Assembly: GCA_025917655.1 (NCBI GenBank)
Contig: CP084616.1
Coordinates: 2,031,292-2,095,291 of the forward strand
DNA length: 64,000 nt
Direction of reading: 5' to 3'
Origin: Chlorella sorokiniana
Lineage: Eukaryota; Chlorophyta; Trebouxiophyceae; Chlorellales; Chlorellaceae
Within the stretch, counting starts at the first letter, position 1. Every line of letters begins with the position of its first letter. A model generated the notes under the pieces. That model saw nothing but the letters and a program-made list of their open reading frames with translations. It had not been told where the DNA came from and did no database searches. Both the position numbers and the translations under genes were made by a program. Below, piece after piece: positions 15,133-63,709 of the stretch.

Positions 15133-18100
15133 ATGGCTCCATTACCGGGGCCCAGCGGCGGCATCTTGCTCATTGAGGCCTTCCGTGCGCTGTCTGCGAG
15201 ACAGCCTGCCGCTGTGGCCTTGCGGTGGCTGGATGATGACGGCGGCGAGGTGGCCGCTCTCAGCTATGGCGAGGTGAGCTTGGGTTTGGGCGGGGGACAA
15301 ATATCTTCCTCCGAGCTCGTGCCTTCTGACCAGCCTTGCCCTTGCATCTCGCCATGGCTGCCATTCGAAGGAAACTCACCTATTTCACTGAAGCCTAGGC
15401 GCCCTGCAGCGACTCGTTGCGGCCCAGTAGCTAGGCTTTTATTAGGCATGGATGACGCATGTGACCCATTGCTGTCGGCGGCTCACCCACACCCCGTCTG
15501 CCGACCTGTGCGGGGCTCACCTTGCTGCCATGGTCTCATCCCCTGCACCCGCACTGCAGCTGGAGTCCCAGGTTGCGGCGGTGGCCGAGTGGCTGACAAA
15601 GACGCTTTGCCTGAAGGCCGGCGACCGCGTTATTCTTAGCTTCCCGCCAGGTCTCAAGTTCCTGGTGGCCTTCCTATCATGTTTGGCCGCAGGCATCATC
15701 GCGGGTGGGTGCCGCGCCATGCGGTTATGCCTGCAGTCTCATCTGGTCTTCTTGCCAAGCTTACAGCTTCTGCAGCAGCAATCAGCAAGCAAATGACAGA
15801 CGCCTGATGTGTCATTTGAGCTAATGGCCTCTTCAATCCCCCGAACCAGTGCATTACCCAGCTTCAAACAGGCTGGTCTCTAACGGTATCCTCTTCACTT
15901 CCGATCTGCAGTGCCGGTGTACCCTCCAAGCCCAGCAACGTTCAAGAAGGACTCTGCGCGGCTGGCGCTCATAGCCAAGACGTCGGGCACCTCCATTGCT
16001 CTCACCTCTGGGGACTATCACCTGATTGTGACAGGTAATTGCTTGTGACATGCAACCCTCGGACGCCCCTGCCTGGTTTCATGCCTTCCTGGAAGCAGAA
16101 GCTGCTGTTTTTGCAGCCTGAGAACTTCTTTGTCAGCTCCTGTATGGTCAGCCCCCCAGGCTCGCACACGGAATGCAGTCATGCGGCTCTTTGCTGCTGC
16201 TGCTGGCTGCCTTGCACACAATTGAGCAGCCGCTGTGCGCCCGTGAGGGCAACTTTATCCGCTTCTGCGATTGGTCCCCCTCACCCACCCACTCACACCA
16301 CTTTGCAGGTCTTAAATGGAAGAGCTTCTTCACAGGCGGCGGCGGTGGGGCGGGCAGCTTGAAATGGAAGGCAGTTCCGGATAGCCTGTTCAAAGCAGGG
16401 AAGGTGGGTCGTCCTGCCGTCCAAATCATACTTCCTGTGTCCTGCTGCAGCTCTTCAAGCCTAAGCGCCGCAGCGCTGCTCTACCTTACATCTCAGCGTG
16501 GCGGCACAGTGACTGTAAGCATGTGGGCTCCCTAGTGCCTGCCCACCTTCCTGCAGGGACGACGCATGAAGCCCTGCACTGTCCGCCCGGAGGCCGTGGC
16601 CTTCCTGCAGTTCACTTCCGGCTCCACCGGTGGGTGGTCGTGATGTCAGTGTGTGCCTTTCCGCCGCCGCAGCAGGAGTTGTTTTTGGCTGACGCCACAG
16701 AAGCACCATCCTTTGTTTGGAGCGCTCAGCCGGCGAAGCTCGGGAAGTAGGGCGAAGCGCTGCTCGGCTGCATGGTCCATCACACTCCTTGTGAGGTATA
16801 AACCTCGCTGCTGCCTACCCTATCCCGCTTCCTTGTCCCGCACAGGCGACCCAAAGGGCGTGATGGTGACGCACGGCAACATTGTTCACAACCTCGCCTC
16901 CATCTACATACACCTGCCGCAGCGCCCAGGGGTCACCATGATCTCATGGATGCCGCAGTACCACGGTGCAGTAGTACCGTCCATGGCAGCCTGCCTGTTG
17001 CTGTTGCTGTGATTCTGTCGCTGTGGGCATGCCCCTGCGGCATGCGCTGGCACGCTGCAGCGCCTGCGGTTGCTGGTGGCTTGGTCTCAGCTGCTGTTGA
17101 TGTCCCGCCTTACTGCCACCCCCTGCAGATTTTGGCCTTATAGTGATGATGCTGCTGCCCCTGTGAGCGTGGCCGGGCTGCTGCATGTGTCAGTCGGATG
17201 CGGCTGCTGCTGCTGCTGCTGCTGCTCCAGCTCCTCTTGCCGGCAGCCTTCTGCCGTTCCCGCCTGGTTGTTCCCCGCAATGCCGCCATCCCGCTGGCGC
17301 CGTGGCCGCGCCCCCTCCTCACCTGTCGGCGTGCGCCACCCTCTCCCCTCGTCCCCCTGCGAACGCAGGTATGTGGGCTACAACACAGTGGTCATGTCCC
17401 CCTTTGCCTTCCTCAAGGACCCCCTGTCTGGCTGCGCACCATCACCAAGTACCGCGGCGAGATCACGGCGGCCCCCAACTTCGCCTTCACCCGCTGCGTG
17501 CTGGCCTGGCAGCGCATGCCCGCCGAGCGCCGCCCCCACCTCGACCTCTCCTCCCTCGTGTTCGCTTGCAACGCCGCGGAGCCCATCCGCCCGGCCACCC
17601 TGGCCGACTTCCAGGCGACGTTTGGGCCGCTGGGCTTCTCAACCACCGCCATGTGCCCCGCCTACGGCCTGGCGGAGCACGTGGTGTATGCCGGCACCAT
17701 GGCTGCCCGCCCGCACCAGCCGACAGTGATTGACCCGGACACCGGCTTTGTGGCGTGCGCTGTGGTGGGGTCGAACTCGGACATTGACCTGCAGCTGATG
17801 AGCTTCGGCGGCGACGAGGAGGGTGCGGCCCCCTCCCCCGTGCCGCCCGGAGCCACAGGTGGGTTGGGTTGGCAGCAAGAGGCGGTGCTCACAGTCAGCC
17901 TTCTTGATGCAGATGGTGGGCGCTGGGCGGTGCCTTCCGCGGCTGGCATGGGGTTGCCGGCCAGCGCAGCCTGTTTCGCTCTGCATGGGCCACATAACCG
18001 CCAGCACCCTGCACGCAACACACTCTGCTCAGCCGCCGCCCACCCTGCCTGCCGCAGGCGAGGTCTGGCTGAGTTCTCCCTCCAGTGCTGCCGGCTACTG

Positions 18101-19567
18101 TGAGTGTCCTACCGCTGCTGCAGCGGTGCCAGGCTGTGCTGCAGCCCCCTTGCTGCAAGTCATGCCCTGCCGCCCGCATCGCCTCCTGCTGCGCACGTCC
18201 CATTGCAAGTACGTCGACCTGCCTGTTCTGCGGCTGCTGCCCCTTGCAGGGGCCCGGCCCGACGTCACAAAGGACACCTTCCAAAACGAGTACCAGGGCC
18301 GCCAGTACCTGCGCACTGGGTGAGCCGCGCCGGGCGCTGCTGCTGCTTCTGCACACTGCACACACCGTCACAGTGATGCAGTCATGGCTGGCCAGCGACA
18401 CCTGGCCCCGTGCGCCTGCACAGTTGGAGGCCGGCGCCAACCCGCACATTCGGGCAGCGCTGCCCTGCTCACGCTTCTTGCGGCGGCTGCGCCCTTCATC
18501 TTTGGCAACACTCTAGATCATCCTTCTTCATCTCACCGCAGGGACCTTGCGTACATCAAGGATGGCCTGCTGTACATCACGGGCCGCCTGAAGGACGTCA
18601 TCATCGTCGGCGGCCGCAACCTGTACCCCCAGGTGGGCTACCGCTGCCGTGCTGGCTGCCTGGGCGTTGGGGCAGCGCTGCCAAGCAGCGTCCAGCGTTC
18701 CTGCTGCGCCAGCAGGCTGGGGCCTGCTCCATGCTGTCCTGCCTGCAGCAGCAGTGTGCCAGCCGCATGAACAACAGCGCCTCGTGCGGGGGAGGTGGCA
18801 GGCCAGGCCCAGCACACCAGCAGCCTGCGCTGCAGCCCGTGATGCGCGCACCCTTTGCATGAGCTGCTCCCACTCACACTCGTGTCCTCCCCATTCCCTC
18901 CCCGCCACAGGATGTGGAGGTGACGGTTGAGGCGGTCAGCAAGGAGATCCGCCCAGGCTGCGTGGCCGCTTTCCAGCTGCAGACCGGGCTGGGGCGCGGT
19001 GATGCCGGGTCCGCCGCCGCGACGGCACCAGACCAGATCGGCATTGTGGCCGAAGTGCGCTCCGCCAAGCTGGACGCGGCCACGCTCAACGCCCTGTTTG
19101 CGGGCATTCGCCAGGCGGTGACGGCGGAGCACGGCCTCACCGTCGCGCGCATTGCGATTGTGAAGGCCCGCACCATCCCCAAGACGGTGGGCAGGATCCT
19201 GTTCTGCGCTGGGGAGGGTGGCAACAGGGGCACAAGCCGCCAGGGTGCATGCAGGGCGGCGCCCAGCCGGCTCGCCGCCCTCCCGCTTCAGCCATGATTG
19301 CACACAGCAGTGCGAGTCAGCCAGCCACTGCCCCTGCACACAGCAGTGCGAGTCAGCCAGCCACTGCCCCCTGCGGCCGCGACCCTGCGCACAGATCTGC
19401 CGCTTGTTTCCATCTACTCAAGGCTGCGCTGCCTGCTCCCCTGCTCCGCCTGCAGACTTCAGGTAAGATCCGGCGCTCCACTTGCAAGGACCTGCTGCTG
19501 AGCGGCGGCAAGCTGGAGATCATCCCCGGCGGCGCGTTTGACGCCGCGGATGCCAAGCAGGCTGCGG
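15133..19567 (+). other. NRPS loading domain: fatty-acyl-AMP ligase (FAAL)-like
   Basis: Would adenylate a fatty acid and pass it to T0. Exons: 15133-15273, 15560-15704, 15912-16034, 16309-16403, 16557-16629, 16846-16965, 17129-17162, 17369-17858, 18058-18101, 18250-18319, 18542-18632, 18911-19186, 19456-19567. Splice phases agree throughout. FAAL features: [29 protein letters not shown] followed by a hydrophobic run, then [16 protein letters not shown] (the FAAL-type YR..T..PNFA signature), [44 protein letters not shown] and [12 protein letters not shown] with the catalytic Lys. One G appears lost at about 17428. FAALs differ from acyl-CoA ligases by an insertion I did not delimit, so a CoA-ligase activity is not excluded. 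Its introns do not match those of the A domains, so it was probably acquired separately. Confidence 0.8.
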
Positions 19568-22500
19568 GTGGGTTGGCGCGCTGCTGGCACTGTGGTGACT
19601 GCGTTGTGCTGGCTCCATGCCTGGCATCTTAGAGATGGGAAATATGGAAAGAATTTGAGACCCTGCCAGCTTGCCTACCAGCGATACGCTGCCCTGCACA
19701 GCTTGCACGGCAGCGGCGCAAGTGCCCGCCCACGGCCGGCCACGCTGCGCTCGACACACCCTTGTCCACCCGCGTCTCGTCGCTTGCTTGCAGAGATTGC
19801 CGGGATGGGCGCCGAGTGGCGGCCGCCGACGGCCGAGGAGGCGGCGGCTGCGCGCGCGCCCTCTGCGCGCAACCTGCTGCCATCCGACGCCAGCCCCGCC
19901 GACCGGATGCGTGCTGAGCTGGCAGACATCATCAGCGGCGCCACCGGCATCCCGCTGGGCCAGCTTGCCCCGGACGCTCCGCTGGCCGAGCTGGGGGTCG
20001 GCTCGCTTCAGGCGCTGCAGATTGTGGGCGAGGTGCAGGAGCGGTACGGCGTGGCGCTGGACCCCACCCTCTGGTTCGAGGGGCTCACGCTGCAGCAGAT
20101 GGTCGACGAGACGGCAAAGCTCGCCCAGGGAGGGGCGGGCGCCGCACCGAGCGCCGACGCAGCGGCGGTTGCGGCGGCCGCGGCGGCGGCAGCCGCCGGC
20201 GACGCGCAGCCGGCGTCGTTCAACCAGGCCCAGATGTTTGTGCTGGACTCCAGGGGTGCTGGTGCCTCCCTCAACATCCCCTTTGCCCTGGATTTGAGGG
20301 GGCAGCTGCACCTAGGGGCCTTGCTCAAGGCACTGGACGCCCTGACCGCCCGCCACGACGCTCTGCGCGCCCACTTCACCGTGCGCGACGGCGCCCCGCT
20401 GTCGTCTATGCACCCGTGCCCCCCGTCTCCCGGCGCCTTTGCGCCGCGCCTGGTGCGTGCGCCGCTGCCAGACGGCGGCGACGCCGCAGTGGCGGCGGCG
20501 ATTGGGGCGGAGGCCACGCGGCCCTTCAGCCTGCTGGACGGCCCCCTGCTGCGCCTGCTGCTGCTGGAGAGCCCCCAGCGCAACGTCCTGGTCGTCACCA
20601 CACACCACGCCATCTCCGACGGCTGGTCAGGTGGGCAGGGCATTGCTGGGGGATGCACGTTGCTTCAAGCCCCGTAGCTTGCAGAACAGCAGCTGCGGGG
20701 GCGTTGCTGTGCAGCTTGCTGTGGGGCCACGGCTGGGTGAGCCATGGTTTCCGTCGCCCGCGCTGCCTCAGGTGGCTGCTCCTGGGTCTGCGCCGCATGC
20801 CTCCACACCCCGCCCCCTGCCGCCCCTCTGCCCCTGCTACTTGCAGTGCGCGTGCTGATGAACGACCTTGCGGCTGCCTACTCTGCTTTTGTGCGTGGGG
20901 AGGAGCCATCGCTGCCGCCCTTGCCTGCCACCTATGCTGCCTACGCGACCTGGCAGCACCAGCAGGCGAAGCAGGGTGCCTGGGACGCTGACCTGGACTA
21001 CTGGCGCGGCCGCCTGCTGGGCGCGCCGAGCCACCTGGCCCTGCCGTACCGCAAGGCGGGAGCGAGCGGCAGCGCCGCAGCCGCAGGCGCCGGCGCCTTC
21101 GTGCCGCTCTTCCTGCCAAAGGAGGTGGTGGCAGGCCTGTCTGCGCTGGCCGGCCGCGCTGGAACCACGCTGTTCAGCGTGCTGGCGGCAGCGGTGTCGG
21201 CGCTGCTCATGCGCTATGCCGACCAGGACGACGTGACGCTCGGCATTCCGTTTTCGGGGCGTGAGGCCGGTCCGGCGCCCCTGCTGCGCCAGGTCGGCTA
21301 CTACGTCAACACCCTGGTGCTGCGCTTGGCCGCCGACCCGGCGCAGCCCTTTGACGAGCTGGTGGCGGCGGCCAAGGCCGAGGTGCAGGCCGCCACCTCG
21401 CACGGCGGCGTGCCCTTCCAGCAGGTGGCCACGCGGGCGGCGCCCGCGGCTCGCAGCCCTTCCAGGTGAGCTTTATGAAGCGCTGCTGTTGAGCCCTTTG
21501 CTGGCTGCCACGCCTGGCCCCAGCTGGCGTGGATTGCAGGCGCCGCGTGGCGGATCCACGCACGCCTGTGGTCAGGTGGCATCCGATTGCTGCACTAGCG
21601 GCAGCTATTTTGCTACGTGTGCTCGTGTTGGTTCAACTCACATATCCAGTGGGCTGGCTCCTGAATGGTTTGCTCTGCTCCTCACCCCGCAGGTCTACCT
21701 TGTGCACCAGGACTACCGCCTGCTGCAGGTGGCGCCCTTCGATGGCCTCGAGGTGTGCGCTTGCTGCAGCGCCGCGCTGTTGCCGCCCACGGCTCGCGTT
21801 GGCTGCTGGCAGTGCCGTCTGCACTGCCCACGGCTCAGCAACATCGCTGCCCTGTCCTTTGCATCGCATAACCTGCCCTCCCGGGCGCTTATCTGGCTTG
21901 CCCGCGCCTTCTGCTCAACATTCTGCCCGTGCCGGCACAAGCCTCGTCATTTCTGTCCGTTTTTTCGGCAGATTCACTTTTATACTTTTGCCCCACCCCT
22001 CGTGGCAGGTGGAGCCCATCCTGGACATTGACCTGGGCGCCTCCCAGTTTGACGCCACCTTCGAGCTGCTTTCCACCCCTGAGGGAGAAGTCAAGGTGGG
22101 CAGACAGCTGCAGCTTGCTCGTCGTGGTTGGAGGCTGCTGCAGGCTGGCGTTCATGCCGCACTTGCTGCTTACAACGCCCTGCACGGCAGCGTGCACCGT
22201 CCTGCCCTGCGCCCTGCTTTGAGCCTAGTGTTTGATCCCTCAGTCGCATGCTTGACACTCTCTGAAGGGCCGTCTGGTGTACAACAGTGACAAGCTGGCA
22301 GCGCCTACTATGGAGGCCATGGCTGCAGCCATGGCCGCGCTATGTGAGGCTGCCGCCGCGGCTCCTCCACCCCGTTGGCAGCGCTGCCGCTGCTGGGAGG
22401 CGCATCCCGCGCCTCTCTGGCAACCCTTTCCGCCGCTCCTTACCGCGAGGACTACCTGCAAGCGCCTGCGGTGCACCTGGCGTTCCAGCAGCATGCCGCA

Positions 22501-25500
22501 CGCAGCCCCAGCGCCCCCTGCCTCATCTTCGAGGGGGAGACGCTGAATTACGGCGAGGTGGAGCGCTGCGCCAACCTGCTGGCGCACACGCTGACTGGGA
22601 TGGGCGTTGGGCGCGGCACGCCCGTGGGCCTGATGCTGGACCGCTCCTTTGAGCTGGTCATCGCCATGCTGGCGGCCATGAAGGTGGGGCTGTGGCCGTG
22701 TGACGTGGTGTGAAGCTTGTGTTTGGGCTGGCCTTGCTGCACCCTTGTTCCAATCGTCTCACGCCTTTGTGCTGCTGCAGGCCGGAGGCTGCTACGTGCC
22801 CCTTGACCCCGAGTACCCCGATGAGCGTCTTGCTGGCTACATGGAGGACTCCAAGGCAGCGGTGCTGCTCACCCAGCAGGCTCACGCTGATCGCGCTGCC
22901 AAGCTGGGCGGGGAGGCCGCCACGTGGAAGGTGAGTGGCCACTGAGCCCATCGGTGCTGACGCTGCATTGCCACACGCTGTCCGTGTGTGTGTGGCACCT
23001 GCTGCGCTGCGCTGATGGCGCCCCTGCTCTACAATGCGAACTGCCTCATTCCGGGCAGGCTCTTCACAACTTGCCGCATTCTCCACCATCGCCCCCTGCA
23101 GACTCTCCTGTTGGACTCCTTCTGGGACCGCCCCTCCACCAACGGGTCGACTGCGCCGCCCGTGGTGGCGGGCGCCTCCCAGAGGACGCCGCCTACATCG
23201 AGTTCACCTCTGGCTCCACTGGCCGCCCCAAGGGCGTCGTCATCTCCCACAGGGCCCTGGCCGACTTCCTGTGGTGAGGCTGCGCCGGCCTGGGGCGGGG
23301 CATGCCAGAAGGGGGAAGGGCCCAGGCGCTGGCCATGGCTGCCATGCGCTCCTGCTCATCGCTGGGCACTCCCCTCTCCCAAATTGAGCGGTGGCTGCCT
23401 GCCTGCCTGCCTGCACCTGGCTTTTGACCGGCGCTCTGCCGCTCGCTGCCCCCCGCTTCGCAGCTGGGCGCGTGACACTTGGGAGCTTGGGCCCACAGAC
23501 GCCTCCCTGCTGCTCATCTCCAGTGCGCTGCGCTGCTGCCTGCTGGCCCATGCTTGCTTGCGGGCTGCCTGCATGTTTGCCTGTTCCTGTCTCACTTGCT
23601 GGCAGCACCGCCAACTGCGGCGTCGGTGAAACCATACGTGCTTGCAGCGGGACGCGTGCCAGCCTACCTGCTGTCACCGTGCTCGCTCTTGCCAGTCGTA
23701 TGTGCTATCTCCCTACACCCACTGCAGTCCAGTTCGACCCGCACGTTGCCTGCACCTTTGTGCCGCTGTTTGTGGGTGGGCGCCTGGTCATCCCGCGCCC
23801 GGGTGGCCAGTCGTCTGCCGACTACATCATGGGGCTGGTGGCCGACCATGGCGTGTCCTTCCTGCCCTCTGTGCCCACCTTTGGCTGGGAGCACTTCAAG
23901 AATCGGTGGGTGCTGTCTGTTGCGGCTGCGCGCGCGCTCATAGACCCGCAAGCATGCATACCTTTTACATGGCTGCTCCTGCTGCGTGTCCACCATCTCC
24001 ACGCTGGTATGCTGCTTGGACGCCCATCTGCCTGCCTCGCTGTTGCTGCCATGGAGCGCTGAACATGCTGGTGCTCCCCACTAGGCACGCGTCTCGCTGC
24101 GACAAGCTGAAGGCCTACCTGTTTGGCGGGGAGCCCCTGCCGCCTGAGCTTGTGGGCGTGGTCCAGAACGCGGCAAGTCTCGCTGGCTGTCTGCTGCAAG
24201 TCGCTGCAGATGGTTGCCATCATTTGCAGCCTGCCAAGCCGTAGATGACCTCAATTGCCGCCTGCCCTCCGGTCATCGCTGCTTTCAGAGGCAGTTTGGG
24301 GTTGTGTGCGCGAGGAGCTCCTGCCCCGCTGCCGTGCCTTGACTGATCGCCGTCGTCAGATGATTGTCCCCCTTTGCCCTTCCCGCAGACGCCGCAGGCG
24401 CTGCCGTCCCACAACGTGTACGGCCCCACAGAGGCCACCATCCTGATTACGATGGGGGTCTTCACAGAGGACAATGTGGGCAACGGCATCCACGTGGGCC
24501 GCCCCAACACCAACGCCCACACCTACATCGTCGACCGCTCGATGCGCCCCGTGCCGCCCGGGGTGCCCGGCGAGCTGCTGCTGAGCGGGCCCCGCCTGGC
24601 GGGCGGTTACGTGGGCAGGGAGGACCTCACGGCCGACAAGTTTGTGCCCAACCCGTGCTTGGAGCTGCTGGCGAGCAGCATCCCGGCGGGGATGAAGCAG
24701 CACTATGGGATGGCGTACCGCACAGGTGGGCTCGACAGCGGTGCAGCGGGATGTGTATTGCCTGGGACCTGCCGTCGACCCAAGGCATGCGCATCTGAGT
24801 CTGCTTCGTTGATTTGGCGACGAGCATGCGTGACGCCTGCCGTCTTTTTGTGGCCCAGCGCTTGGCGTGACTTGGCCGCTATTTGGGGCCCAACCGCTGC
24901 AGGTGACTTGGTGCGCTGGCGCCCGACGGCAACCTGGACTTCTTGGGGCGCATCGACCGGCAGGTCAAGGTCAACGGCGTGCGCATCGAGCTGGGCGAGG
25001 TTGAGGCCGCCCTGGGCAGCGCACAGGGTGAGCCTGCTCTTGTTCCAGCTCGCGACTGCAAGGCTTCGACGCACCCACCGCTTGGTTGCCGCTTGCTGCC
25101 TTGCATGTATAGCCAGGTGGCGACGCACGTCAGCTGCATGTAGCTGTGCTTGCCCATCTCAACTGACGCACCGCACACACAACCACTTCTGCCATCCCAT
25201 CCACTCCCACCCTCTTCTCACTGCCACTGGCTCCATCCATGCGCAGGCGTGGACCAGGCAGTGGCCACCGCCGTGCTGGACCCGGGCATCGGCGCCAAGC
25301 GCCTGGTGGGCTACGTTGTGGCGGCTGGCGTGGCCCCCGCCGCTGTGGTGGCCCACTGCCGCTCCCTGCTGGTCCCCGCCATGGTCCCCTCCGCAATCGT
25401 GGCCCTGGACAGCTTCCCACTGCTGCCCAACGGCAAGATTGACATGAACGGGCTGCCGCTGCCCGATTGGGGCAGCCTGCAAGAGGAGGAGGTTGAGTAT

Positions 25501-43500: not shown

Positions 43501-46500
43501 GCAGCGGGACGCTGCTGACTGGGGCAGCGCCGCCTCCCGGCTGCGGGGCAGGACAGTTGCCCGGCTGTTGCTGGTGCCGGGCAAATGGGACGATAACACG
43601 CGCCCGCTGAGCGCCAACCAGCAGCAGATGTGGGTGTTGTACCAGAGCGGCGCACATGCGGCATACAACATTCCGGTCTGCATGCGCATGCATGGGCTGG
43701 TGGACGAGGCTGCGCTCCGCTTGGCGCTAAACACCGTTGCCGCCCGCCATGAGAATTTGCGGTGGGACCCTGCTGCTCCCTTGCTACTACATTATGCATG
43801 CCTGCCCTGATGCAGTAGACACAGCTGCCGCCTGTACTGTGCGACGCTCGCGTTCTTCAATGCATGACCTGTGTCTTCAAGCACGCTGTGACTTGGATGT
43901 ATGCAGGCTGGCATTTCACGAAATGAAGGGCACTGGCGAGATTGTGGGTTTGGTGCGGCCGTCTGCTGGCTACTCTGTGCCCCTCCAATTTGTCGATCTG
44001 TCGTCTGGCGGGGACGACGCCGTTGATGAGGCTATGGCGGTGGAGGCCAGGCGGCCGTTTGACCTCGAGAACGATCCGCTGATGCGCGGCGCACTGTTCC
44101 GGGCATCACCCAGCGAGGCCACGCTGGCACTGACGCTGCACCACAGCGTGAGCGACGCCTGGTCAACGGGCGTGCTGACCAACGAGCTGACCGCCGCCTA
44201 CAACGCTTTCAAAGCAGCTGGCGGTGCCAAGCTGGACTTGGAGTCTGTGCTGGAGCCGCTGCCGGTGCAGTACGCCGACTTTGTGGTGTGGCAGTTGCGC
44301 ACGCTGGAGCAGCGTGGGGAGGCCCTGCGGAGCTGGTGGCAGGAGGCGCTGCGTGGAGCCCCCCTCCTGCAACTGCCGCTGGACAGGCCCCGTCCCGAAG
44401 CGACGACATCCAAGGCTGGAAACCACCACCTGGAGCTGCCACCGCAGCTGATGACGCGTCTGGCCCAGCTGGCCGCGCGGCTGGGTGTCAACATGCAGGC
44501 GCTGCTGCTGGCGGGCGTGATGGTGGGTGGCAAAGCTGGCGAGGCCGCATGTTCGCACAGTGATACCGCCACAACTTCATGCTTGAGTCGGAAACCTGCC
44601 CCTCGCCTGCTTCCCTCTGGCCAGCCCAGCCATTAGCTTGCATGTGTAGTGCCACACAGCGGTCGGCAAGCCTGACACTTTCTCTACTGCCTTCTGGCGG
44701 CCCTGCAGGCCGTGCTGAGCCGCTACAGCGGGCAGGAGGATGTGGTTGTGGGTGTGCCCACTGCGGGTCGCGACTTGGCAGAGGCTCAGGTGTCCATTGA
44801 TGCGCTACCCCCAGAAGCAGCAAGCTGGCCTAGCCTGCTTTGCAATGTATGGCTTGCTCTACGTTCGTTTATTGGACGAAGTTATACGGCTGTCTTTTAT
44901 CAAGCGGGCATTTCGGTTGCTTTGCTTGCTCCCATATCTTGCCACCTTAATGTCACTGGCGCTTCCCCTGCCCGTCTGCAGTCGCTCATCGGCTACTTTG
45001 TCAATACAGCAGCGGTGCGTGCTGTGGTTGAAGACGATGACACTTATGAGACCCTGGTCAAGCGTGTTTCCACTTCGCAGGCAGGCTGTGTGATGTTGCT
45101 GCAACAGTCTTGGGTTTGGCTGCTGTGGTGCATTCTGTCATGAGCAGCATCCTGATTCTTCCCACATCTTGTTTTTCGCTCGGATGCAGGTGGATGCCCT
45201 TCAAAACGCGGCGCTACCCTTTGCAGATGTTGTGTCTGCTGTCGGCGCCAAGCGCGCACGAGGCATCAACCCCATTTTCCAGGCATGCATTTGCTGACTC
45301 ATGTCTGTTTACTGTTTTCTTCTGGCTTCCGCAATTCAACATGACGGGTCATTGCTCCACCTGCTACAGGTCATGTTCCAGTACTTCCCTGACAGCACCA
45401 GCCTCAAACCAGTGCTGGAGGGCTTGCAAGTGGAGATGCTGCCTGCACCGCCACTGGAACAGGCCAAGGTAGGGGGCGCCTTGGCTGGATGCTGTCCAAA
45501 TTTGGCAGCATTCAGTGGTTGTGTTGTGATGTCAACGCGCAAATACCTGCCACACATGCAATGCCTCCACAACAACGGCCAGTGGTCAGCAGAGAGAGTT
45601 CCTCTGCGTTTTTGTGCCCGATCCCATCTTAGCAACCACCGGCCTTGGCAGCTTCCAACCCCCACAATCACACGTAACCCCCTCCAAGCTTGCAGGTGGA
45701 TGTTTCCATCTATATTGATGGCAAGGGTCACCTTGGCATGGACTATATGGCAGAGCTGTTTGATCCGCCCACCATCCAGTCCATCGGTGACTCGCTGCTG
45801 CGCATGCTGGAGGGCGCCGCTGCCTCGCCTGCCGCCGGCATTTGGGGCCTGCCCATCCTGGGGCAGGCCAACAAGGCGCAGCTGGCACGCATGACGTCGG
45901 GCGAGGTGCGGCCCCACTACGTGCCTGGTGGCGGAGCCGCTCTTACCGTTGAGCGATTTGAGCGCGTCGCCGCAACTGAGCCCAGCCGTCCATGCCTCAT
46001 TTTCAATGGCGCAAAAGTTGAGCTATGGGGAGGTGAATGCGCGGGCAAACCGCCTGGCGCATTGGCTGCGCGCTGCGGGCGTTGGACAGGATGTTGCTGT
46101 CGGCGTCATGCTGGACCGCTCCTTTGAGCTGGTCATCGCCATGCTGGCGGCCATGAAGGTGGGGCGCACATGGTTAAGCGATCCCTTCGTTTATCGTTCC
46201 TTCTTCCAATTGGCCTTGATTGTGTTGTAAGTTCTCAGTTTGGCAGCTCTGTCTGTTATAAATGCATTGCAAGCCTTCCACTGCAGGCCGGAGGATGCTT
46301 TGTGCCCCTGGATCCCGAGTACCCAGATGATCGCCTGGTGGTCTACATGGAGGACTCCAAGGCAGCGGTGCTGGTGACTCAGCGCGCGCACGCCGAGCGT
46401 GCGCAGCAGCTGGGTGGAGAGGCCGCCGTTTGGAAGGTGAGGTTTGGACATCTTCTGTACGTGCCACTTGATGGGACAGAGAGCAGTTGTCATCTGTTGT

Positions 46501-49500
46501 TCACCTGCTGAACTGGCTAGCGTTCGTGTTTCCTTTGCGATGCAGGTCCTGGTATGTGAGGAGTTTGACTTTGGCAACGGCCCGATACCAACCTTGGGCC
46601 CCAGCTGGTGGATGCTGATGCGCTGGCCTACGTCATCTTCACGTCAGGGTCCACCGGGAGGCCCAAGGGCGTCATGATCGACCACACCGCGCTCATCGAT
46701 TTCCTCTGGTGTGTGCGAGCCATAAGCCGCGCCTGCAAATTGAAAAGTTATCAGCTGTAGACTCTGTTGACTCACCGGCATATCCTATACCCATGCAACC
46801 TGATTTCAGTGTGTGTGCACCGCTTCGTGCTTTCCCCCTGCAGCTACAACCTGGACTACTATGGAATTGAGCCCGACGCCGTGTTCCTTCTCTCCGTCAC
46901 CATCAACTTCGACCCCTTCATCATGCAGGTGGGGAGGATTTGTGTAGCAGGCAGCCAAGTTTGGGCATTAGCCAGTGCATGCAAATTCGAGAGAGAAAGC
47001 TTGGTGCAGCAATTTGCTTGGAACTCAATACATGGTTGATCAAGCAGCGCTGATGACCCGCTGGCGCCGACCTTGCTGCAGATGTGGACGCCGCTGGTTA
47101 TTGGGGCGCAACTGGTGATTGCAAGACCAGGCGGGCACGTGGACCCTGAATATATTGCTGACCTGCTTGATGAGCACAAGGTCACTTTCTTCAACACAGG
47201 TGTGTTGTGCAGTGGCAGACGCAATGTATGGTGCTGGCTTGGCTTGGCTTTCTCACTCAGAATGACTCTTTTTGCTGCGCGGCCATCAGTTTACCTTATG
47301 CTGCCCTGTTGTCGTTGATGCAGTGCCTGCGCTGGGTCTGGAGTACTACAAGTGCCCTGCTGCCCAAAATTGTTCTTCCCTAAAGACGGCTTGCTTCTCG
47401 GGCGAGGCGATGCCGCTTGAGCTGGTTGAGCTGATCTACAGGAACGTGCCTAAGGGTGTTACTGTGGTGAATGCATACGGTGAGCTTGGGATTTGTGGAA
47501 ACGAGGTGATGCTGCTATTCGGTCTTGGTGATGCGGTCCTGGTTATGCAGCCATAGCAAGCTTAGCATGATGGCAGCTGTTTGGCATCTCAATTGCTTCA
47601 CCATCAAATTGTGCAGAGCCCTTGAATGCAATGTGTCGTTGTGCAGGCCCCACCGAGGCAACCGTCATGGCCACCAACCTCAAGTGCTGGGCGGGCATGA
47701 AGCACATGAGCATCGGCTACCCGGAGGCCAACATGCAGTGCTATATTGTAGACAGGTTCATGCAGCCGGTGCCTGTTGGGGTGCCGGGAGAGCTCCTGCT
47801 GAGCGGCCCGCGCCTGGCGCGTGGCTACATGGGGCGCCCAGACCTCACGGCAGACAAGTTCATTCCCAACCCCTGCTACGATGATGTGTCGTCACTCCTC
47901 CCAGAGCAGCTGCGCAAGTACTTCCAGCTTGCATACCGCACGGGTAAGGAGGGGAGCCGGTGTGGACTTTACTACTGAGCCAACGCAATTCGCGCTGATG
48001 CACAGATTGTTGCATCTACTATGTTAATTTGTGCTTCTCGAGTTTATAGTCGTACTTGATTTATGGATATCTGCTGCCAATCTGCAAAAATGCAGGGGAT
48101 CTGTGCCGCTTCAAGGCAAACGGCGAGATTGATTGCTTGGGCCGCATCGACAACCAAATCAAAATCAATGGCGTGCGCATGGAGCTCGGGAGGTGGAGAC
48201 TGCTCTGGGCACCGCACCAGGTGGGTGGATTGTCTGGTCTGTTTGTCTGCACTCGGCTCTCGCCGCACATCTGCTATCTTCTCTGCGCAGCAGGGTTGTT
48301 TGGCATGCGTCCGCTGCGCATGTGCTTCCTTGCCCTGTTTGTTTTCACTGCCGCTTTCCCTATGCCTTGCTGACAGGCGTCGACCAGGCCGTGGCTGTTG
48401 CAATGCTGGATGTGGATGCCGGCCAGAAGCGCTTGGTGGGCTATGTCACCCCGGCGACGTCTCGCCTGCTGACGTTCTGGACCACTGCCGCACTCTGCTG
48501 GTCCCTGCCATGGTCCCTTCTGTGGTGGTGGCCATGGAATCCTTCCCCCTGCTTCCCAACGGAAAGGTGGCAACACGCGCGCTGCCGCCACCAGTCTTTG
48601 GCATCGCTGCGTCAGAGGAATATGTGGCGCCAACCAACCCCACAGAGCAGGTGCGCACACCTTTTCGCCGATAAGTGAATTTTCGTCTGCAACAGCTGGC
48701 TATCATTCGCTACTGGTTTGCTTGTTGCGTATCCACTGTCCTGCCCGAATGTTGTGTTTTTATACAAGAGGAAGCTTTTGCCATTTCAGCTTGGTTTTGT
48801 TACTTCTGCAGGTTATTCAGACCATCTGGATGGACGTGCTGGGAATTACTGAGCCTATATCCATTGATGCTGACTACTTTGAGATTGGAGGTATGTGCCG
48901 TGTATATTTGCAGGCTGCTGCCGCAGTATGTGCGGCACTCTGCTGGCTACAGTGTGTCCACTGCCCTTCATTTCGCACCCACCGCTGCAGGCTCTTCCAT
49001 CAAGGCTGGCATTATCAATGCCCGCATCCGCAAGTACATGCAGGCAAGCTTGCACACCAAGCACATCATGCATGAACTGAGCTCAACGCAAGTTCCTTTG
49101 CAGATCACGGGCGTGCATGCCACATGCGCCAAGCCGTGGTCCTTGACAACCTGCGTTGTGCCTGTTGCAGCTGGATGAGCTTCCCGGAAACCTCATCCTT
49201 ACGAACCGCACCATCCGCAAGGTGGCTACGGCGCTCGCAGCTGGCGGCGGCCAGAGCGAGCTCCGGGCGGGCCCCACGCGAAGGCTCGCAGGCGGCTCCA
49301 CAAAGCGTGTGTTTGGGACGCTAGCAGTAGAAAACGCGCTGGCAGCACGCATGAACGCCACCGACCTGGAGCTGGGGCAGCACATGCCGCACGCGGTGCC
49401 ACGCACACGCCTCCCCTACCCGCTGTACATGATCATCTCTGTGCTTTTTCGCTGGTCACCACCCTGATCGCGCCACTGGTCACCGCCACGATTGTGTCGC

Positions 49501-52500
49501 TCATGGCGCTCATACAATCCGAGCCGCACCCCAAGAACGGCTTTTGGAACTTCCTCATCGGCCCCGCCATCTACCTCGGCCTGCTGACCCTCATGTTTGT
49601 GGGGCTGCCTGTCATCAAGTGGATCCTTTTCCCGCGTCGCATGCGCCCAGGCGTTTACCCGTTGTATGGGTGGACCTACCTCAGGTGGGCATGTCTGTTG
49701 ATTGGCTGGCAATGGTTTGGGGGCAGCCGGTGCGCCCTTATTTTGTCCCAAACCTCATTTTGCTGCGGCTCTCCAACACAACATCAACAGTTCCACTTGC
49801 CTCCTCCCTTATACACGTTTGCGTTGCCGCAGGTGGACCGCCTACCAGGCCATCCAGCGCCGCGTCATGTGGTGCGTCACGGCCCTTGGCAGCGGCCATG
49901 CTGCCCGCAGCTCTACTTGTCTTCCTCCGAAACTTACTGCTGCCACGATTGCGCCAACACTAGGGGGTTAACGTGCTAGGTTGTTGCCTGCATGAATGTC
50001 TCTACGGTGGTGTGAACCAGTATGTGCACCCTTTCTCGACCCTCCTCTCCCACAGGTACTTCACACCCCACATAGGTGGCACGGAGGTCTGGAACTGGTG
50101 GTTGCGCTCACTGGGCGCGCGCATCGGACAGGGATGTGTGATTGACACCAATAACATTAACGAGCCGGACCTCATTTCCATTGGGCACAGTGTGCTGGTG
50201 GCAGAGGACGCCTTTGTGTCGGCCGCTACCATTGTGCCGCGGGGATTTGTGGACGAGAACGGTGAGCAGTTCCTATGGATAACATTGACTGCTTGCTTGC
50301 GGGCTGTCCCGCTCACTATGCAAAGACCAGCCGGTGCAGCGAATGGTTGTGAGGAACACGCCTTGAATACACAACGCTAAACTCTTTGTTATGCCTCCCG
50401 TTGCAGCCGGCTGCCTCATACTGTCCACTTTGCTGTCATTGGCGACAATTGCGTGTTGGGTCGGCGGTCCGTGGTTCCGGCGGGGTCGCGCCTGGCGCAT
50501 GACAAGCTGTTACGCCCTATGCTGCACCCAACCACCTTCGGGAGTTCTGGAGCTGGAGGCTGGTAGGAAGCTGTACCCACACTTTTATCCAGGTGTGCGG
50601 GGCCACTTATTTGAAGTCTGACCTAGCCACCAATCCTGTTAACAGAGTTGCCAGTTCTGGCAATCGTGGCCTTACAGTTCAGGGTGCATGAGCGTGAGCC
50701 TGCCAATTACCCCTTATTGTACATGCAGAGCGCCACATGAAGCCATGGACACGCACCATAACTGCCCTCATTGGTTCCATCCTGAACACACTCTCCTACA
50801 TTCCGGGTGCGGCGCTATCCATCTGTGTTGTGTGCTGGTGAGCAGCCACACCAGCTTCCTTACGTTGTCGCTAGTGCCGCGTGCTTCTTCTGTTTGTGCT
50901 GCTTCAGCGCTATAGCCAAGAGTGTTCTTCAAATGCAGGACCTACAACCTGGCATCCTCCACGGATCCACCGACGAGCGCAGCAACCTTCAACCCTATTA
51001 TTTCTCCCGAAAACTTTTGTGGCTACGGTGCGCCGCAGCTACCCGTACTTTGTTGCTCTTGTTGCTGGCCGTGCGTTTTTCATGGGAGCATGCTGGCTTG
51101 ACTTCAACCACAGCAGAAAGTAATGTCTAGGAAGCCTCCCATTTTCCATGCATTAGAGCTAGGCATGGACGTTGCCCTCCCCCCCACACACGCGCACACA
51201 CACACACACACACCTCCCGGCCCCCTCCTCCGCCCACCCTAACCGCCCTCCCGCCCACTTACCACCCACACGCATTTTGGGTGGCTTCTTGACTCCCGCT
51301 CGCAGATGTATGCGGGGCTGAGCTTCGCTGTGCGCGGTTCCACGTTCTATTTCAAGATAATCCTCCTGCCCATCAGCGGAACCCTGGCTTCGGGCTTGGT
51401 GCTGACCCCGCCACGATGTTCGTGCAATTCATTTTCAATCTTGTTTGGAAGTGGCTGGTGAGCATGAGGGAACCAGGGCCAGCATTGGCATGCACACATG
51501 TTGTTTGACATGACATGGCTCCAGGAAGCTGGGCAATGGCTGGGAAAACTTGACGGGCATGCTGGAGTCCTATTCCAGTTTGACGATTGCCAGTTTCAAA
51601 GACTATGCACAGTCGCCTTGACCTGTGCCTCCTTCCCTTCTCTGCGGATGCTAGGCCGGTTGTCTCCTGGGCGTTGCCTGACCTCCTCACAGTGGTTCTT
51701 TGCTTCGCTACCGTGTCTTCCTTAACCTCCAGCGCGGCGGCATGTGGCAGCTATCCAAGCAATACTTCCATTCAACCCTGGTGGCCAACTCCTTGCTGCG
51801 CGCATTCGGTGCCCGGCTCGGATACGACTGCCATGTCGACGGGATCACTGGTGGGTTTGGTGCTTTGCGGGTGATCTTGTACTCAAGGCCATGGGCGCCC
51901 TTTGCTGTGTATGCGGCTGCCTCCCAGCGAACGCCGTCGTTCGTTCAAAGCTTGGAGCGCCCTGCCAAAACCAGCCAACAACCCCAGCTTGCAGTTTCTA
52001 CAGCCGCCCTGTAAGGTGTACTAGTCGTTTGGATTTCTTCATTGCAGAGTACGATGCTGTTGACGTTGGCAACGTGGCCGTCACTGGGGGAAGTTCTGCT
52101 TTTCACACTGTGGATGAGGACGGCATAATTCAAAAGATCACAGTGCATGACTTTTCATCTTTTGGTGAGCAAACGGTGTTGATTCAGGCCACCGACATTC
52201 GTTTGCATGTGGCATGCCTCACCTTGCAAAGGATGCCCTCTTCTCTTGCTGCCCTTGTTGCAGGCCACACCACCTTCTTCCCAGGCTCCTCCATTGGGGT
52301 GAGTGTAGGATTATGGGTGTGCATCGTCCGTTGTGCTTGCTTTCTGGGTTGACGAGGATGCCCCTGGTGGCCTTGTGGCATACAGCCTGTCATTCCCACC
52401 ACAACATGACCTCCTGCAAGTTTCCATTCACGCTTTCATGAAGCATTGGACATTTCATCCCATTACCTGATAGGATTAGCTATGCCCCCTTTAGGAATGG

Positions 52501-54728
52501 CAGATTTCTTACCAAGGCAGAACTAAAGCACATCTGCAAACAACCCACTCCTGCAGTTTGCTTCCATTGTGGGTAACGAGACGAGCGTACAAGCAGGCCG
52601 CTCCGTGCCCCCGAAGCACAATCTGCAAGGCGATTTGTTGTACCCTGGTGGCGCCTCCACCGGCCCCGAGAAGGAGTATTCCGATTCTGACAAAATCGAG
52701 GATAGCGACATCAAGGACTTAGAGGCAGGCGGTGTAGTGGATGACCCTCCCGCCAGGACAGCCGACTTCGATATTTTTGCTCCATCAGCGCCGCCTTCCA
52801 GCCTGTGGCACAAGCTCAAGGCTATTCACTCTGCAGCACGCGTGGTCCTGCTAACGCTCGCAATGGATGCTGGCACTGGGACTGCTTGTTGGGCTCCAGC
52901 GTCAGTCGCCTTGGCTGCCTTCATGAGCTTCCTCGAGGTGCGGCGGTTGTAAGTGTCCATATGCATGCTTATGCGTCCCTCATCATGTCCTTGTTATGTC
53001 TCGTCCACCTGCTGCACCTAACTGATCTGCCTTTGCGAAGACTTCAACGCACCCCAATGCCTCTGCCTTTCCATGCGGGCTCAACGTGCAGGTGAACAAG
53101 GACTGGGCCATTGGCTCCCTTATTGCTATAACCATCCCGCTGGTTGTTGCGCTGGCCGTCGTGGGCCTTTGCTGCTTGTTGGTCTGGATTAACTTTCACA
53201 CGCTTATTTGGCGCGGCCGGGCCCTGTGGAAGGAGAAGTCTGCCTCAGGAAAGAGCCTGCGTGTGCGCATGCTAGGTGAGCAGATAGGTTGGTTCGAGCC
53301 CACCTCAGGCTGACGTGAACTTTAGCTTGCTGGGTCCATTGCTCTCCACTGACTGGCCCACTTGATCTTTATGTGCTCCACTTCGTCCCCGGCTCACAAA
53401 GCGTTGTTGGCTAACGTCTGCCTGCATGTCTGGTCGTTCAGGCTTGGTGGAGGGCAAGATCCAGATGTTGTTTGATGCCTTCAAGGGCACTCCCACCTTC
53501 AACTTGGCCATGCGCCTGTCCGGCTGGGGCGTAGCCCGGAGTCCATCATCCTCGGCTCCCTGTCACAGGTGGGCGGACGGTTGTCAGGGTAGCCGCATCA
53601 GGCTGGCGTTGCATCGATGGTTGCAGCCAGCGTGCCTGATGCTAGGGGTCGATTGGGTTGCTACCAGAGTTGGAGGGGTACATTGCAACTGGAGCCCAGA
53701 TCAGTTACCCGCCCAATCGCCCCACCCGCATCCATATTTGGCATTCAACTACGCTTGATTGGCCACTCATGTTGTCTCGGCCCATATGCCTGGCTCCAGG
53801 AAATGACTTTGTTTAACGGCGGGAAGGGCCTCATTATCGAGCCGGGCGCTGTCATGTCCACACACTACATCCAGTCCGGACGTCTCTTCTTTGTGCCCGT
53901 CACGTGAGCTGCAACGGCATGTGAAAGGCTTGCAGTTTTGGGTGGCGTGCCTTTTCAAACTCCTTGCATCATCATGGGCGAGATATGTATTTGCCGCAGT
54001 CTGCTAGCGCCGTGACAAACGCCCCTCTGGTGCGCTGCTTTGCTGCCCTGCAGCACGGAGGAGAATGTTTGGGTGCAAGCTCGCACGCGCACGCTGGCAG
54101 CCCCTGCGTTTGGCGAGCATTCTCGCGTCCTACCCGCCTCCATGGTGCTGCCCAACGAGGAGGTGCCTGCCATGACGATCTGGGGAGGCATCCCAGGTGT
54201 GTTGAGCCCTAGAGCTTCGTGCCGGAACTCTGTCGATTGCGTCTGTGAGACTGGCATCGTTGTGTGCCCGTCACCAGCCGCATTCGTGCATCGTTTTGTT
54301 CGTTGACGGGCCATGTTTCCTCGTGTATCTTGTTTGCAGCCAATCCGGTGGGCAAGGTGTTGCCGCCAGAAGTGAAGGGTGCTGTGGAGGCTGCTCGGCG
54401 CGAGACCTTGGAGGCCAAGGACACGGTACCTGAGCTGCAAGCAATGTCAATAGTGGAAGAGATGCGGGAGGTGATGCAGCTTGGGAGATCCGGGCAGACG
54501 TCAACACAGCTTGGTCGGCGGACCAACGTTGTCTCCTTCCGTGTCGCCAACCCCGCATCTTACACAGGCGCCACCTTGAACCAACATTCGCTTGCCACCA
54601 GCCTTGCCGGAAGCACGTTCCGAGTCCAGGCCTCGCAAAGTAGACGACGTCTTGACACTCTAGGGAAAGAAAGGCCATCCGGCGCCTATTTTTGCATTAT
54701 GCTCCTCTGTGCACCCGCTTTGCCATGA
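15133..54728 (+). CDS. Multimodular NRPS: FAAL-T, five C-A-T modules, membrane/beta-helix terminal region
   Basis: A single ~39.6-kb, many-exon gene (ATG 15133, TGA 54726-54728). Domain order: FAAL 15133-19567, T0 19794-20150, then C-A-T modules to about 49330, then a terminal membrane region to 54728. Core motifs are present: FTSGSTG and PNGK in the A domains, HHxxxD in the C domains, GGTS/GGSS (GVGS in T0) in the carriers. No epimerase, methyltransferase, reductase or thioesterase was seen. Expected product: an N-acylated pentapeptide, assembled at a membrane. Equivalent introns recur between modules. About two dozen one-base frame breaks sit inside conserved exons; most look like sequence errors (see findings). 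If they were real, the gene would be a pseudogene, which the high conservation on both sides of each break argues against. Known NRPSs are mostly bacterial and fungal; a bacterial origin followed by intron gain is inferred. Confidence 0.85.
19301..19373. repeat. 36-bp tandem duplication in an NRPS intron
   Basis: Two adjacent, nearly identical ~36-bp units, each starting CACACAGCAGTGCGAGTCAG, inside the intron between 19187 and 19455. Recent slippage or replication duplication with no coding effect. Confidence 0.9.
19794..20150 (+). other. NRPS carrier domain T0 (acyl carrier)
   Basis: Starts after a Pro/Ala-rich linker in the exon that begins at 19794 and runs through into C1 without an intron. 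The carrier helix is [18 protein letters not shown]. The phosphopantetheine Ser codon is 20003-20005, in the ACP-like context GVGSLQ and not the GGTS of the later carriers. It should hold the acyl chain from the FAAL for condensation by C1. An Ala-rich spacer separates it from C1. Confidence 0.75.
20200..22440 (+). other. NRPS condensation domain C1 (acyl-accepting starter)
   Basis: Begins [16 protein letters not shown], a variant of the usual SxAQxR-type start. Catalytic HHAISDG is encoded at 20603-20623, just before an intron at 20631. Later blocks are [19 protein letters not shown] and [13 protein letters not shown]. As the first C domain after an acyl carrier it should join the fatty acid to residue 1. 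Frame breaks at about 21453 and 22368 are repaired by one base each. Intron placement and the opening sequence differ from C3-C5. Confidence 0.75.
22440..25480 (+). other. NRPS adenylation domain A1
   Basis: Activates residue 1. Motifs in order: [48 protein letters not shown] (23203-23250), [62 protein letters not shown] and [10 protein letters not shown] with the A10 Lys. Specificity residues by eye against GrsA-PheA: D-P-A-P-L-G-V-I-L plus the A10 Lys. This matches no code I can name, so the substrate is not assigned. Frame breaks at about 23180 (one C) and 24925 (one G, CCCGG signature). Introns after MLAAMK and inside YRTG|DL are shared with A2-A5. Confidence 0.8.
25480..26180 (+). other. 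NRPS carrier domain T1
   Basis: Carrier spanning an intron: [22 protein letters not shown], interrupted here by an intron, then [14 protein letters not shown]. Pantetheine Ser codon 25756-25758 in GGTS. The intron directly after the GGTSxL core recurs in T2-T4. Confidence 0.75.
26393..28655 (+). other. NRPS condensation domain C2
   Basis: Joins residues 1 and 2. Opens [27 protein letters not shown] straddles an intron (His codons 26778-26783, Trp split at 26812). Later blocks: [58 protein letters not shown]2 is more divergent from C3-C5 than those are from one another, and lacks the RPLSANQ start they share. No frame break was noticed here. Confidence 0.75.
28655..31395 (+). other. NRPS adenylation domain A2 (twin of A5)
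   Basis: Activates residue 2. Motifs: [48 protein letters not shown] (29411-29458), [81 protein letters not shown]. Specificity residues by eye: D-P-M-N-I-S-A-V-M plus Lys. A5 reads D-P-M-N-C-S-A-V-M, so both should take the same or a very similar amino acid. I cannot name it. Exons from about 30098 to 30600 are nearly identical to those of A5 at nucleotide level. No frame break was seen. Confidence 0.8.
31395..31930 (+). other. NRPS carrier domain T2
   Basis: [16 protein letters not shown], then [11 protein letters not shown], interrupted by an intron, then [10 protein letters not shown]. Pantetheine Ser codon 31524-31526. Followed by a helical stretch ([17 protein letters not shown]) and a linker into C3. 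Confidence 0.75.
31930..34175 (+). other. NRPS condensation domain C3 (HHxxxDA variant)
   Basis: Joins residues 2 and 3. Opens [15 protein letters not shown]. The catalytic block is HHAVGDAWS at 32585-32611, with Ala where the family normally has Gly after the Asp. Later blocks: [69 protein letters not shown]. Frame breaks at about 32045 (G run) and 33374 (CCCGG signature). Introns after HEVLR, LLACLQ and NPVFQ are matched in C4 and C5. Confidence 0.75.
34175..37195 (+). other. NRPS adenylation domain A3 (most divergent)
   Basis: Activates residue 3. Motifs: [42 protein letters not shown] (from 35063) followed by an unusual AQQLHGG in place of the VMIDH type, [77 protein letters not shown]. 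Specificity residues by eye: D-A-T-A-G-G-S-V-L plus Lys; substrate not assigned. The intron found after DFLW in the other A domains is missing or displaced here. One-base breaks at about 35092 (a G) and 36596 (CCCGG signature). Confidence 0.75.
37195..37870 (+). other. NRPS carrier domain T3
   Basis: [14 protein letters not shown], an intron, [26 protein letters not shown], an intron, then [14 protein letters not shown]. Pantetheine Ser codon 37484-37486. Confidence 0.75.
37870..40290 (+). other. NRPS condensation domain C4
   Basis: Joins residues 3 and 4. Opens [27 protein letters not shown] at 38519-38545 is the canonical form. Later blocks: [73 protein letters not shown]. Frame breaks: two bases near 38032, one C near 38388, and one G at 40191 (CCCGG signature). 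Confidence 0.75.
40290..42935 (+). other. NRPS adenylation domain A4
   Basis: Activates residue 4. Motifs: [47 protein letters not shown] (from 41094), [53 protein letters not shown] (frame intact here), [27 protein letters not shown]. Specificity residues by eye: D-P-R-Y-A-S-V-L-S plus Lys; substrate not assigned. This domain has the densest frame breaks: about 41065, 41195, 41500, 41517, 41893, 41923, 42039 and 42417. Each is mended by one base, and the flanking motifs match the other A domains, so decay is less likely than error, but this is the part where pseudogenisation is hardest to exclude. Confidence 0.7.
42935..43590 (+). other. NRPS carrier domain T4
   Basis: [12 protein letters not shown], an intron, [19 protein letters not shown], then TSLL, an intron, [14 protein letters not shown]. 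Pantetheine Ser codon 43229-43231. Followed by [19 protein letters not shown] and the linker to C5. Confidence 0.75.
43590..45905 (+). other. NRPS condensation domain C5 (HHxxxDA variant)
   Basis: Joins residues 4 and 5. Opens [18 protein letters not shown]. Catalytic HHSVSDAWS at 44139-44165, again Ala after Asp as in C3. Later blocks: [84 protein letters not shown]. No clear frame break in this domain. Confidence 0.75.
45905..48625 (+). other. NRPS adenylation domain A5 (twin of A2)
   Basis: Activates residue 5. Motifs: [49 protein letters not shown] (46638-46685), [80 protein letters not shown]. Specificity residues by eye: D-P-M-N-C-S-A-V-M plus Lys, one change from A2. Breaks at about 46016 (extra A), 46584 and 48453 (CCCGG signature) and 48187 (G run). 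Confidence 0.8.
48625..49330 (+). other. NRPS carrier domain T5 (GGSS)
   Basis: Exon from 48812 ([19 protein letters not shown]) ends at 48890 within the Gly pair. The next exon, 48991-49043, gives [18 protein letters not shown]. The pantetheine Ser is the first of two Ser, codon 48993-48995. It differs from T1-T4: GGSS in place of GGTS, and an intron inside the core instead of after it. The following intron (49044-49170) appears to be GC-AG; the next exon starts [15 protein letters not shown], a normal end for a carrier domain. Confidence 0.7.
49330..54728 (+). other. NRPS terminal region: repeated membrane + left-handed beta-helix blocks
   Basis: Replaces a thioesterase. Three blocks are visible. 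Block 1: hydrophobic spans at about 49420-49640 (MIISVLF...; [19 protein letters not shown]), then hexapeptide repeats at about 50057-50560 ([29 protein letters not shown]). Block 2: spans at about 50750-51460 ([29 protein letters not shown]), repeats at about 51740-52640 ([20 protein letters not shown]). Block 3: spans at about 52840-53200 ([19 protein letters not shown]), repeats at about 53802-54370 ([30 protein letters not shown]). This fits the NRPS terminal domain TIGR02353 and the membrane half of epsilon-poly-lysine synthetase. Function here is inferred: membrane anchoring and product release or transfer. Breaks at about 49445, 50739 and 51402. The tail 54373-54728 is polar. Confidence 0.7.
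51185..51213. repeat. CA microsatellite in an NRPS intron
   Basis: An (AC)n run interrupted by CGCG, within the intron preceding the exon at about 51306. Simple repeat. Confidence 0.9.
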
Positions 54729-56040: not shown

Positions 56041-56095
56041 ATTTAGGGTTTATGGAAAACCTAACCTCAATAAAACCCTGCATGGCGAGGGTATG

Positions 56096-56122
56096 GGGTT
56101 TGAGGGTTTAGGGTTTAGGGTT
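56096..56122 (+). repeat. Interstitial telomeric repeat tract
   Basis: GGGTTT followed by GAGGGTTTAGGGTTTAGGG, about three to four telomere units in the same orientation as the terminal array, with a degenerate unit at 56041-56051. It lies 7.6 kb inside the chromosome end. Confidence 0.85.
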
Positions 56123-59800: not shown

Positions 59801-59950
59801 TGCAATGTTCACACTCACAAACAATCAAAAACACTCAGCACCACTCACAGACACTCAGCAAAGCACTCCAGCACCACTCCAGCTCGCGCACGCACCGCCG
59901 CTCAGCCGCCCATCCGCCACATGCTCCAACTCAGCCCATCAGCCTCACCC

Positions 59951-63690: not shown

Positions 63691-63709
63691 GGGCCCCCTC
63701 TTCAGTGCA

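Follow-up and report, generated by a model that had tools for sequence, protein, structure and literature searches.

The 64,000-base window analysed here, the last bases (2031292–2095291) of contig C11 in a green-algal genome of 38.8 Mb and 15 contigs, carries a large nonribosomal peptide synthetase (NRPS) gene that begins with a fatty acyl-AMP ligase (FAAL) and ends in a membrane region homologous to the terminal domain of the epsilon-poly-L-lysine and delta-poly-L-ornithine synthetases, Pls and PosA. The gene has a second copy, and the two have diverged under purifying selection. We consider it fairly probable that this nuclear, telomere-side, duplicated gene encodes a lipopeptide synthetase, in which the Pls/PosA-related tail would move an acyl-pentapeptide to an amine at the membrane.

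Gene model and domain organization

The gene was modelled with a two-sequence Viterbi exon finder, run on the window together with a paralogue on contig C10, which scores synonymous change and conserved splice sites. Because the finder takes GT/GC-AG introns only, the splice classes are imposed. The model used here runs on the forward strand from the ATG at 15133 to 54769, with 116 exons (median exon 128, median intron 154) and a CDS of 20889 nt, or about 6960 codons. Depending on the finder settings, the window copy has 98–126 exons and ends at 54632 or 54769, so that single exon edges and the position of the stop are uncertain. In a profile search, exon matches to Condensation and AMP-binding are spread along the whole stretch from 15133 to 54728. 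A genome-wide search with PF00668 at E 0.001, in which all 38 first-look candidates were scored, returned 21 exon pieces, all of them from the C11 gene or from the left-end region of C10.

The domain order read from the model is FAAL, a carrier (T0), five condensation-adenylation-carrier (C-A-T) modules and the membrane tail, all on the forward strand. C domain limits were taken from the HMM, and the limits of A and T were placed by hand in all five modules. The FAAL (15133–19515, its end also placed by hand) precedes T0 at 19919–20146, which matches PF00550 at E 1.7e-12 and has its serine motif near 19994. Module 1 (20186–26082) consists of C at 20186–22330 with an HHxxxD motif at 20603, A at 22462–25452 and T at 25495–26082 with the carrier serine motif at 25744. 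Module 2 (26364–31849) has C at 26364–28438 (HHxxxD at 26778), A at 28701–31397 and T at 31425–31849 (serine motif at 31512). Module 3 (31925–37773) has C at 31925–34080 (HHxxxD at 32585), A at 34228–37172 and T at 37200–37773 (serine motif at 37472). Module 4 (37864–43478) has C at 37864–40158 (HHxxxD at 38519), A at 40302–42897 and T at 42925–43478 (serine motif at 43217), and module 5 (43580–49233) has C at 43580–45797 (HHxxxD at 44139), A at 45945–48590 and T at 48618–49233 (serine motif at 48884). PF00550 alone recovers three of the six carrier domains in the window copy, the other three being recognized by their serine motifs. There are six A3 motifs, one in the FAAL and one in each of the five A domains; that of module 3 is present in the DNA near 35063, next to another frame change, and is skipped by the exon model.

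Five C domains with HHxxxD, five A domains and five T domains after FAAL-T0 mark the gene as an NRPS. The exon model, domain matches and motifs bear out the first-pass annotation of an intron-rich nuclear gene in a green alga that encodes FAAL-T, five C-A-T modules and a terminal membrane region. That annotation was right about the architecture; it identified neither the tail nor the telomere, and it did not notice that the gene has a second copy. Its description of the gene as complete holds for the domains, all C, A and carrier motifs having been found, and fails for the open frame, which in the assembled sequence is broken in both copies.

The FAAL starter and the module domains

We searched the PDB with a FAAL query composed from both copies. 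The best matches were 7r7e (E 2.8e-100), 3kxw (8e-89) and FadD32 entries. Seven of the first 15 rows name FadD or a fatty acyl-adenylate ligase in the title; the remaining eight (entered as polyketide synthase, saframycin synthetase or acyl-CoA synthase) we take to be FAALs as well, and the first feruloyl- or fatty-acyl-CoA synthetase row appears only at E 1.7e-26. The closest relatives of the starter in this ranking are fatty acyl-AMP ligases, not acyl-CoA ligases. NCBIfam FAAL models match at up to E 1.5e-97, yet under their curated cut-offs (for example 327 vs 775 bits).

A composed query of module 2 A-T matches LgrA with a whole-sequence E of 2.1e-193. We read the specificity pocket of every algal module from one or both copies. 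At position 239 all 25 of the sampled Pls-type A domains carry Glu, as do 4 of the 60 canonical A domains and no algal module; the acidic pocket residue for a diamino acid, a trait of Pls and PosA, is absent from every algal module. The nine-position pocket codes of modules 2 and 5 differ at a single position, so that residues 2 and 5 of the peptide may be identical. An A domain tree with an arbitrary bacterial tip as its root grouped the ten algal sequences next to five of Pls type and one other (support 0.966). With 11 FAALs as a (distant) outgroup, the 25 Pls-type A domains separate as a clade (0.907) and 59 of the 60 canonical A domains share a clade with the algal ones (0.965), and after this tree a Pls-type origin of the algal A domains was dropped. 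The domain phylogeny called for by the first-pass annotation thus places the algal A domains, unlike those of Pls and PosA, among canonical NRPS A domains; it does not resolve a single origin of the C domains, as the module 2 C domain stands apart from the other four. A recent transfer from a sampled bacterium was also considered and is argued against by the 80 NRPS loci kept of at least 581 confirmed, which are only 36–42% identical and belong to many phyla.

The terminal membrane region

The region at 49321–54395 is, judged by profile comparison, related to the Pls/PosA terminal domain, though divergent from it. TIGR02353, the NCBIfam model of Pls/PosA, matches a piece of the C10 copy at E 1.2e-25 (90.0 bits) and the last window piece at E 1.2e-12 (47.1 bits). 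On the C10 tail with X at the breaks it reaches 118.5 bits, far under the curated cut-off of 423.1. Scored exon by exon across the genome, the algal loci give 34.2 and 32.8 bits, no better than ordinary hexapeptide proteins; the model also gives sub-threshold scores of 19–66 bits in each of eight bacterial genomes and matches in 13 of 14 control genomes. Since these exon-wise scores are unspecific, we base the assignment on longer stretches. An HMM of bacterial tails scores 86.3 bits on the window tail and 116.6 bits on the C10 tail, and hhalign aligns the algal tail with five bacterial Pls/PosA-type tails over 588 columns at a probability of 99.4%. As controls in hhalign, the reversed sequence gave 0.4%, and the FAAL and a module 2 stretch gave no match. 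The annotated plasmid relatives of the tail are Pls/PosA proteins of 1335–1368 aa, plus one of 911 aa.

In the accessible part of PMC10522769, the Pls/PosA domain is predicted to place three left-handed beta-helices above six helices that form three pairs. The hydropathy peaks of the algal tail likewise fall into three pairs, at about 49458/49551, 50779/51351 and 52884/53128, with soluble segments around 50123, 51844 and 53833. This pattern is found in both copies, and the five bacterial tails give six to eight peaks by the same simple hydropathy. Seven peaks exceed 1.5 in the window tail, three of them exceeding 2.0; the first 6150 residues hold 26 peaks above 1.5 (maximum 1.98), and because the same scan yields these 26 peaks outside the tail, we treat the pattern as supportive only. 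As far as the available descriptions of Pls and PosA go, they share with the alga a terminal membrane domain placed right after a carrier, and hydrophobic pairs and soluble segments in matching order. Pfam Hexapep scores 19.8 bits on the tail against a cut-off of 27, and a Pfam scan of two tail pieces found no thioesterase or reductase match in them.

The algal tail is 19–23% identical to the five bacterial tails. Such distance, the score far under the TIGR02353 cut-off and the Pls-type pocket Glu that no algal module carries would fit a tail that is an inert membrane anchor or a part for export, the lipopeptide being freed by hydrolysis or by a separate enzyme. We regard this as unlikely, because the homology covers the soluble segments too and because the tail is under strong constraint between the two copies (dN/dS 0.096), stronger than an anchor should require. 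A divergent Pls/PosA-type domain that still acts on the peptide chain is the reading we prefer.

The second copy, selection and frame breaks

The last 292 bases of the window (63709–64000) are TTTAGGG repeats at the end of contig C11, which places the end of the gene about 9 kb from the telomere. TTTAGGG telomeres are consistent with green algae. The left end of C10 is telomeric too, and close to it is a collinear paralogue of full length. With blastn, window positions 15110 to 54631 are collinear with the C10 copy at 73–89% identity in blocks longer than 1 kb, and a global alignment of the two is concordant. dS between the copies ranges from about 0.10 in the module 1 C domain to 0.57 in the tail, and introns have diverged by 0.26. 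The uneven dS suggests gene conversion between chromosome ends; two telomere-side copies of this kind would make chromosome-end exchange a candidate driver of megasynthase evolution.

Differences between the copies are distributed over codon positions 1, 2 and 3 as 253, 148 and 965, and pN/pS is 0.149 in frame vs 1.79 and 3.02 in the shifted frames; the coding signal is therefore not a product of chance. Over 6923 codons dN/dS is 0.133, with a regional range of 0.049–0.268 and a value of 0.094 beyond 48450. No stop in the paralogue faces any window codon, and the one stop left in the window model, at 32175, lies in a doubtful exon.

The open frame nevertheless needs six breaks in the window model and five in the C10 model, two of which (near 33373 and 40190) are common to both. 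These two are identical in the copies and could be ancestral, converted or the result of a context-specific sequencing error. A 35-nt intron as the cause of the break at 33373 was rejected, because the stretch contains a motif common to the other modules. In the alignment, window exons contain 44 indels, of which 39 shift the frame, the gap being in the window copy in 15 cases and in the C10 copy in 24, although a gap by itself does not tell which copy is broken. Twenty-five of the 39 lie inside both exon models with a local identity of at least 0.75; some of the remainder may sit in wrongly modelled exons. A parse based on usage only found no frame switch in a 10-kb polyketide synthase (PKS) stretch and none in the NRPS either, and is hence insensitive.

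The 39 frame-shifting differences and the two shared breaks, at a telomere-side site whose adjoining segment is repeated on other contigs, raise the question of whether both copies have recently decayed, having been functional for most of the time since duplication and being broken now by real indels. The substitution record is difficult to reconcile with that. Introns show 0.061 frame-shifting indels per substitution; at that ratio, neutral decay that produced 39 indels would have brought about 643 neutral substitutions and about 16.5 stops, and the probability of seeing none is 7e-8, in a test biased towards constraint because the exon model avoids stops. Low dN/dS and the lack of facing stops point to assembly error or recent decay as the source of the breaks, and away from old pseudogenes. 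Moreover, 18 of the 25 well-placed indels fall at runs of at least three equal bases, where long-read errors tend to occur. We infer that the breaks are mostly assembly error, and judge recent decay of both copies, against which the dN/dS of 0.133 and of 0.094 near the gene end also speaks, to be rather improbable.

Although some finder settings divide the model into two to seven genes, transcription as several cooperating genes, such as a FAAL-NRPS and a separate membrane protein, is very unlikely, since order and strand are identical in both copies, the split under one setting coincides with a frame break and those under another partly do, and at 24 of 25 loci elsewhere the Pls-type tail shares a frame with an A domain.

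Proposed biosynthetic pathway

We infer the reactions of the individual domains, the final transfer and the membrane location as follows. The FAAL would activate a fatty acid and load it onto T0. The five C-A-T modules would then extend it to an N-acyl pentapeptide bound as a thioester to the carrier of module 5. At this point the Pls/PosA-related membrane domain would stand in for a thioesterase or reductase and, at the membrane, pass the chain one or a few times to an amine, which could be an amino acid, a polyamine or an amino lipid.

According to the accessible part of PMC10522769, the terminal domain of Pls and PosA is required for polymer formation, joining carrier-bound amino acids to amines. 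As these relatives are needed for that linkage, transfer to an amine is likelier here than free release. The free N-acyl pentapeptide predicted from the domain order in the first-pass annotation is thus not borne out as the product, the kinship of the tail favouring transfer to a further amine. More tentatively, and with odds that we put below even, a membrane polymerase domain may have replaced the thioesterase so that the lipopeptide or serial residues are coupled to amines within the membrane, giving membrane-bound or capped poly-amide lipids. We found no modular NRPS for which such a release mechanism or product class is described, and termination of NRPS synthesis by a Pls-type membrane domain at the end of a FAAL-primed five-module line would be new.

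Comparison with bacterial synthetases

We sampled 1281 bacterial genomes, 398, 195, 292 and 396 from the phyla of Duganella, Corallococcus, Nostoc and Streptantibioticus, respectively. Tail matches at E 1e-30 or better number at least 61 in at least 55 genomes, these counts being lower bounds because in most genomes two to five candidates were scored; the longest open frame that holds one is 1565 aa. Pls-type loci have A and tail in one frame in 24 of 25 cases and a C-domain match in none of the 25. The sampled Pls and PosA members carry a single A-T without a C domain ahead of the tail, whereas the alga has FAAL-T and five C-A-T modules.

Bacterial FAAL-primed NRPSs, such as loci in Nitrospira and Variovorax, resemble the algal gene in having the FAAL followed by C-A modules in one frame. 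Among 86 loci scanned, FAAL-C-A-C-A was found in five of the ten FAAL-bearing frames (3086–3114 aa). The A domains of the alga and of this FAAL-primed sample align at no more than 45% identity. Unlike the alga, the 80 genome loci (the best 80 of at least 581, with flanks of up to 10 kb on each side) have no Pls-type tail nearby. No multimodular NRPS ending in a Pls-type tail turned up in this bacterial sample; among fungi, an epsilon-poly-lysine synthetase has been reported (PMC7179176). The openly accessible literature yielded no account of a multimodular NRPS that is primed by a FAAL and ends in a Pls-type tail.

Algal NRPS context

Large NRPS genes were said at first pass to be rare in green algae, and this agrees with published counts, as given in the accessible parts of the two surveys: NRPSs in 7 of 32 algal species (PMC4661987) and in 3 of 22 green-algal table rows (PMC7073580). 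Among the eukaryotic algal NRPS genes counted there, as the present gene is, are an NRPS with one C domain in Chlorella variabilis (PMC4661987) and two NRPS clusters in Parachlorella kessleri (PMC7073580). The largest algal NRPS given in PMC4661987 has 490 kDa and 10 domains, and a much larger NRPS-PKS hybrid of 85 domains appears under the record SymGor_s2_6 in PMC10794256. The latter, a survey of 212 algal genomes, lists eight NRPS candidates that are similar to reference clusters and lack a thioesterase. The accessible text of these three papers describes no FAAL with five modules and a Pls-like tail. The locus offers a concrete gene for testing algal lipopeptides, in a lineage near the widely cultivated Chlorella.

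Genomic surroundings

None of the 20 flanking ORFs tried has a Pfam match at E 0.01. No Rfam match at gathering scores and no tRNA were found within the window. Positions 56000–63600 of the window are repeated at 86–96% identity on contigs C3, C4, C9, C8 and C5, and a further short match lies close to the right end of C10. The genome has two matches to phosphopantetheinyl transferase (C1:4084918 and C6:1921982), the enzyme class that activates carrier domains. Other carrier-rich loci in the same genome lie at C1:4.159–4.218 Mb, C8:512–548 kb and C2:14–73 kb. The C1 stretch contains ketosynthase, ketoreductase and carrier domains, and several of the carrier matches on C8 recur at an offset of 10320 bases. 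A CP26 exon of 121 aa in this genome has PDB 8bd3, an entry from Chlorella ohadii, as its best match, with 108 of 121 residues identical, which is consistent with an alga near Chlorella. PF00504 has 41 matches in the genome, several of them on C11, which indicates that the host is photosynthetic.
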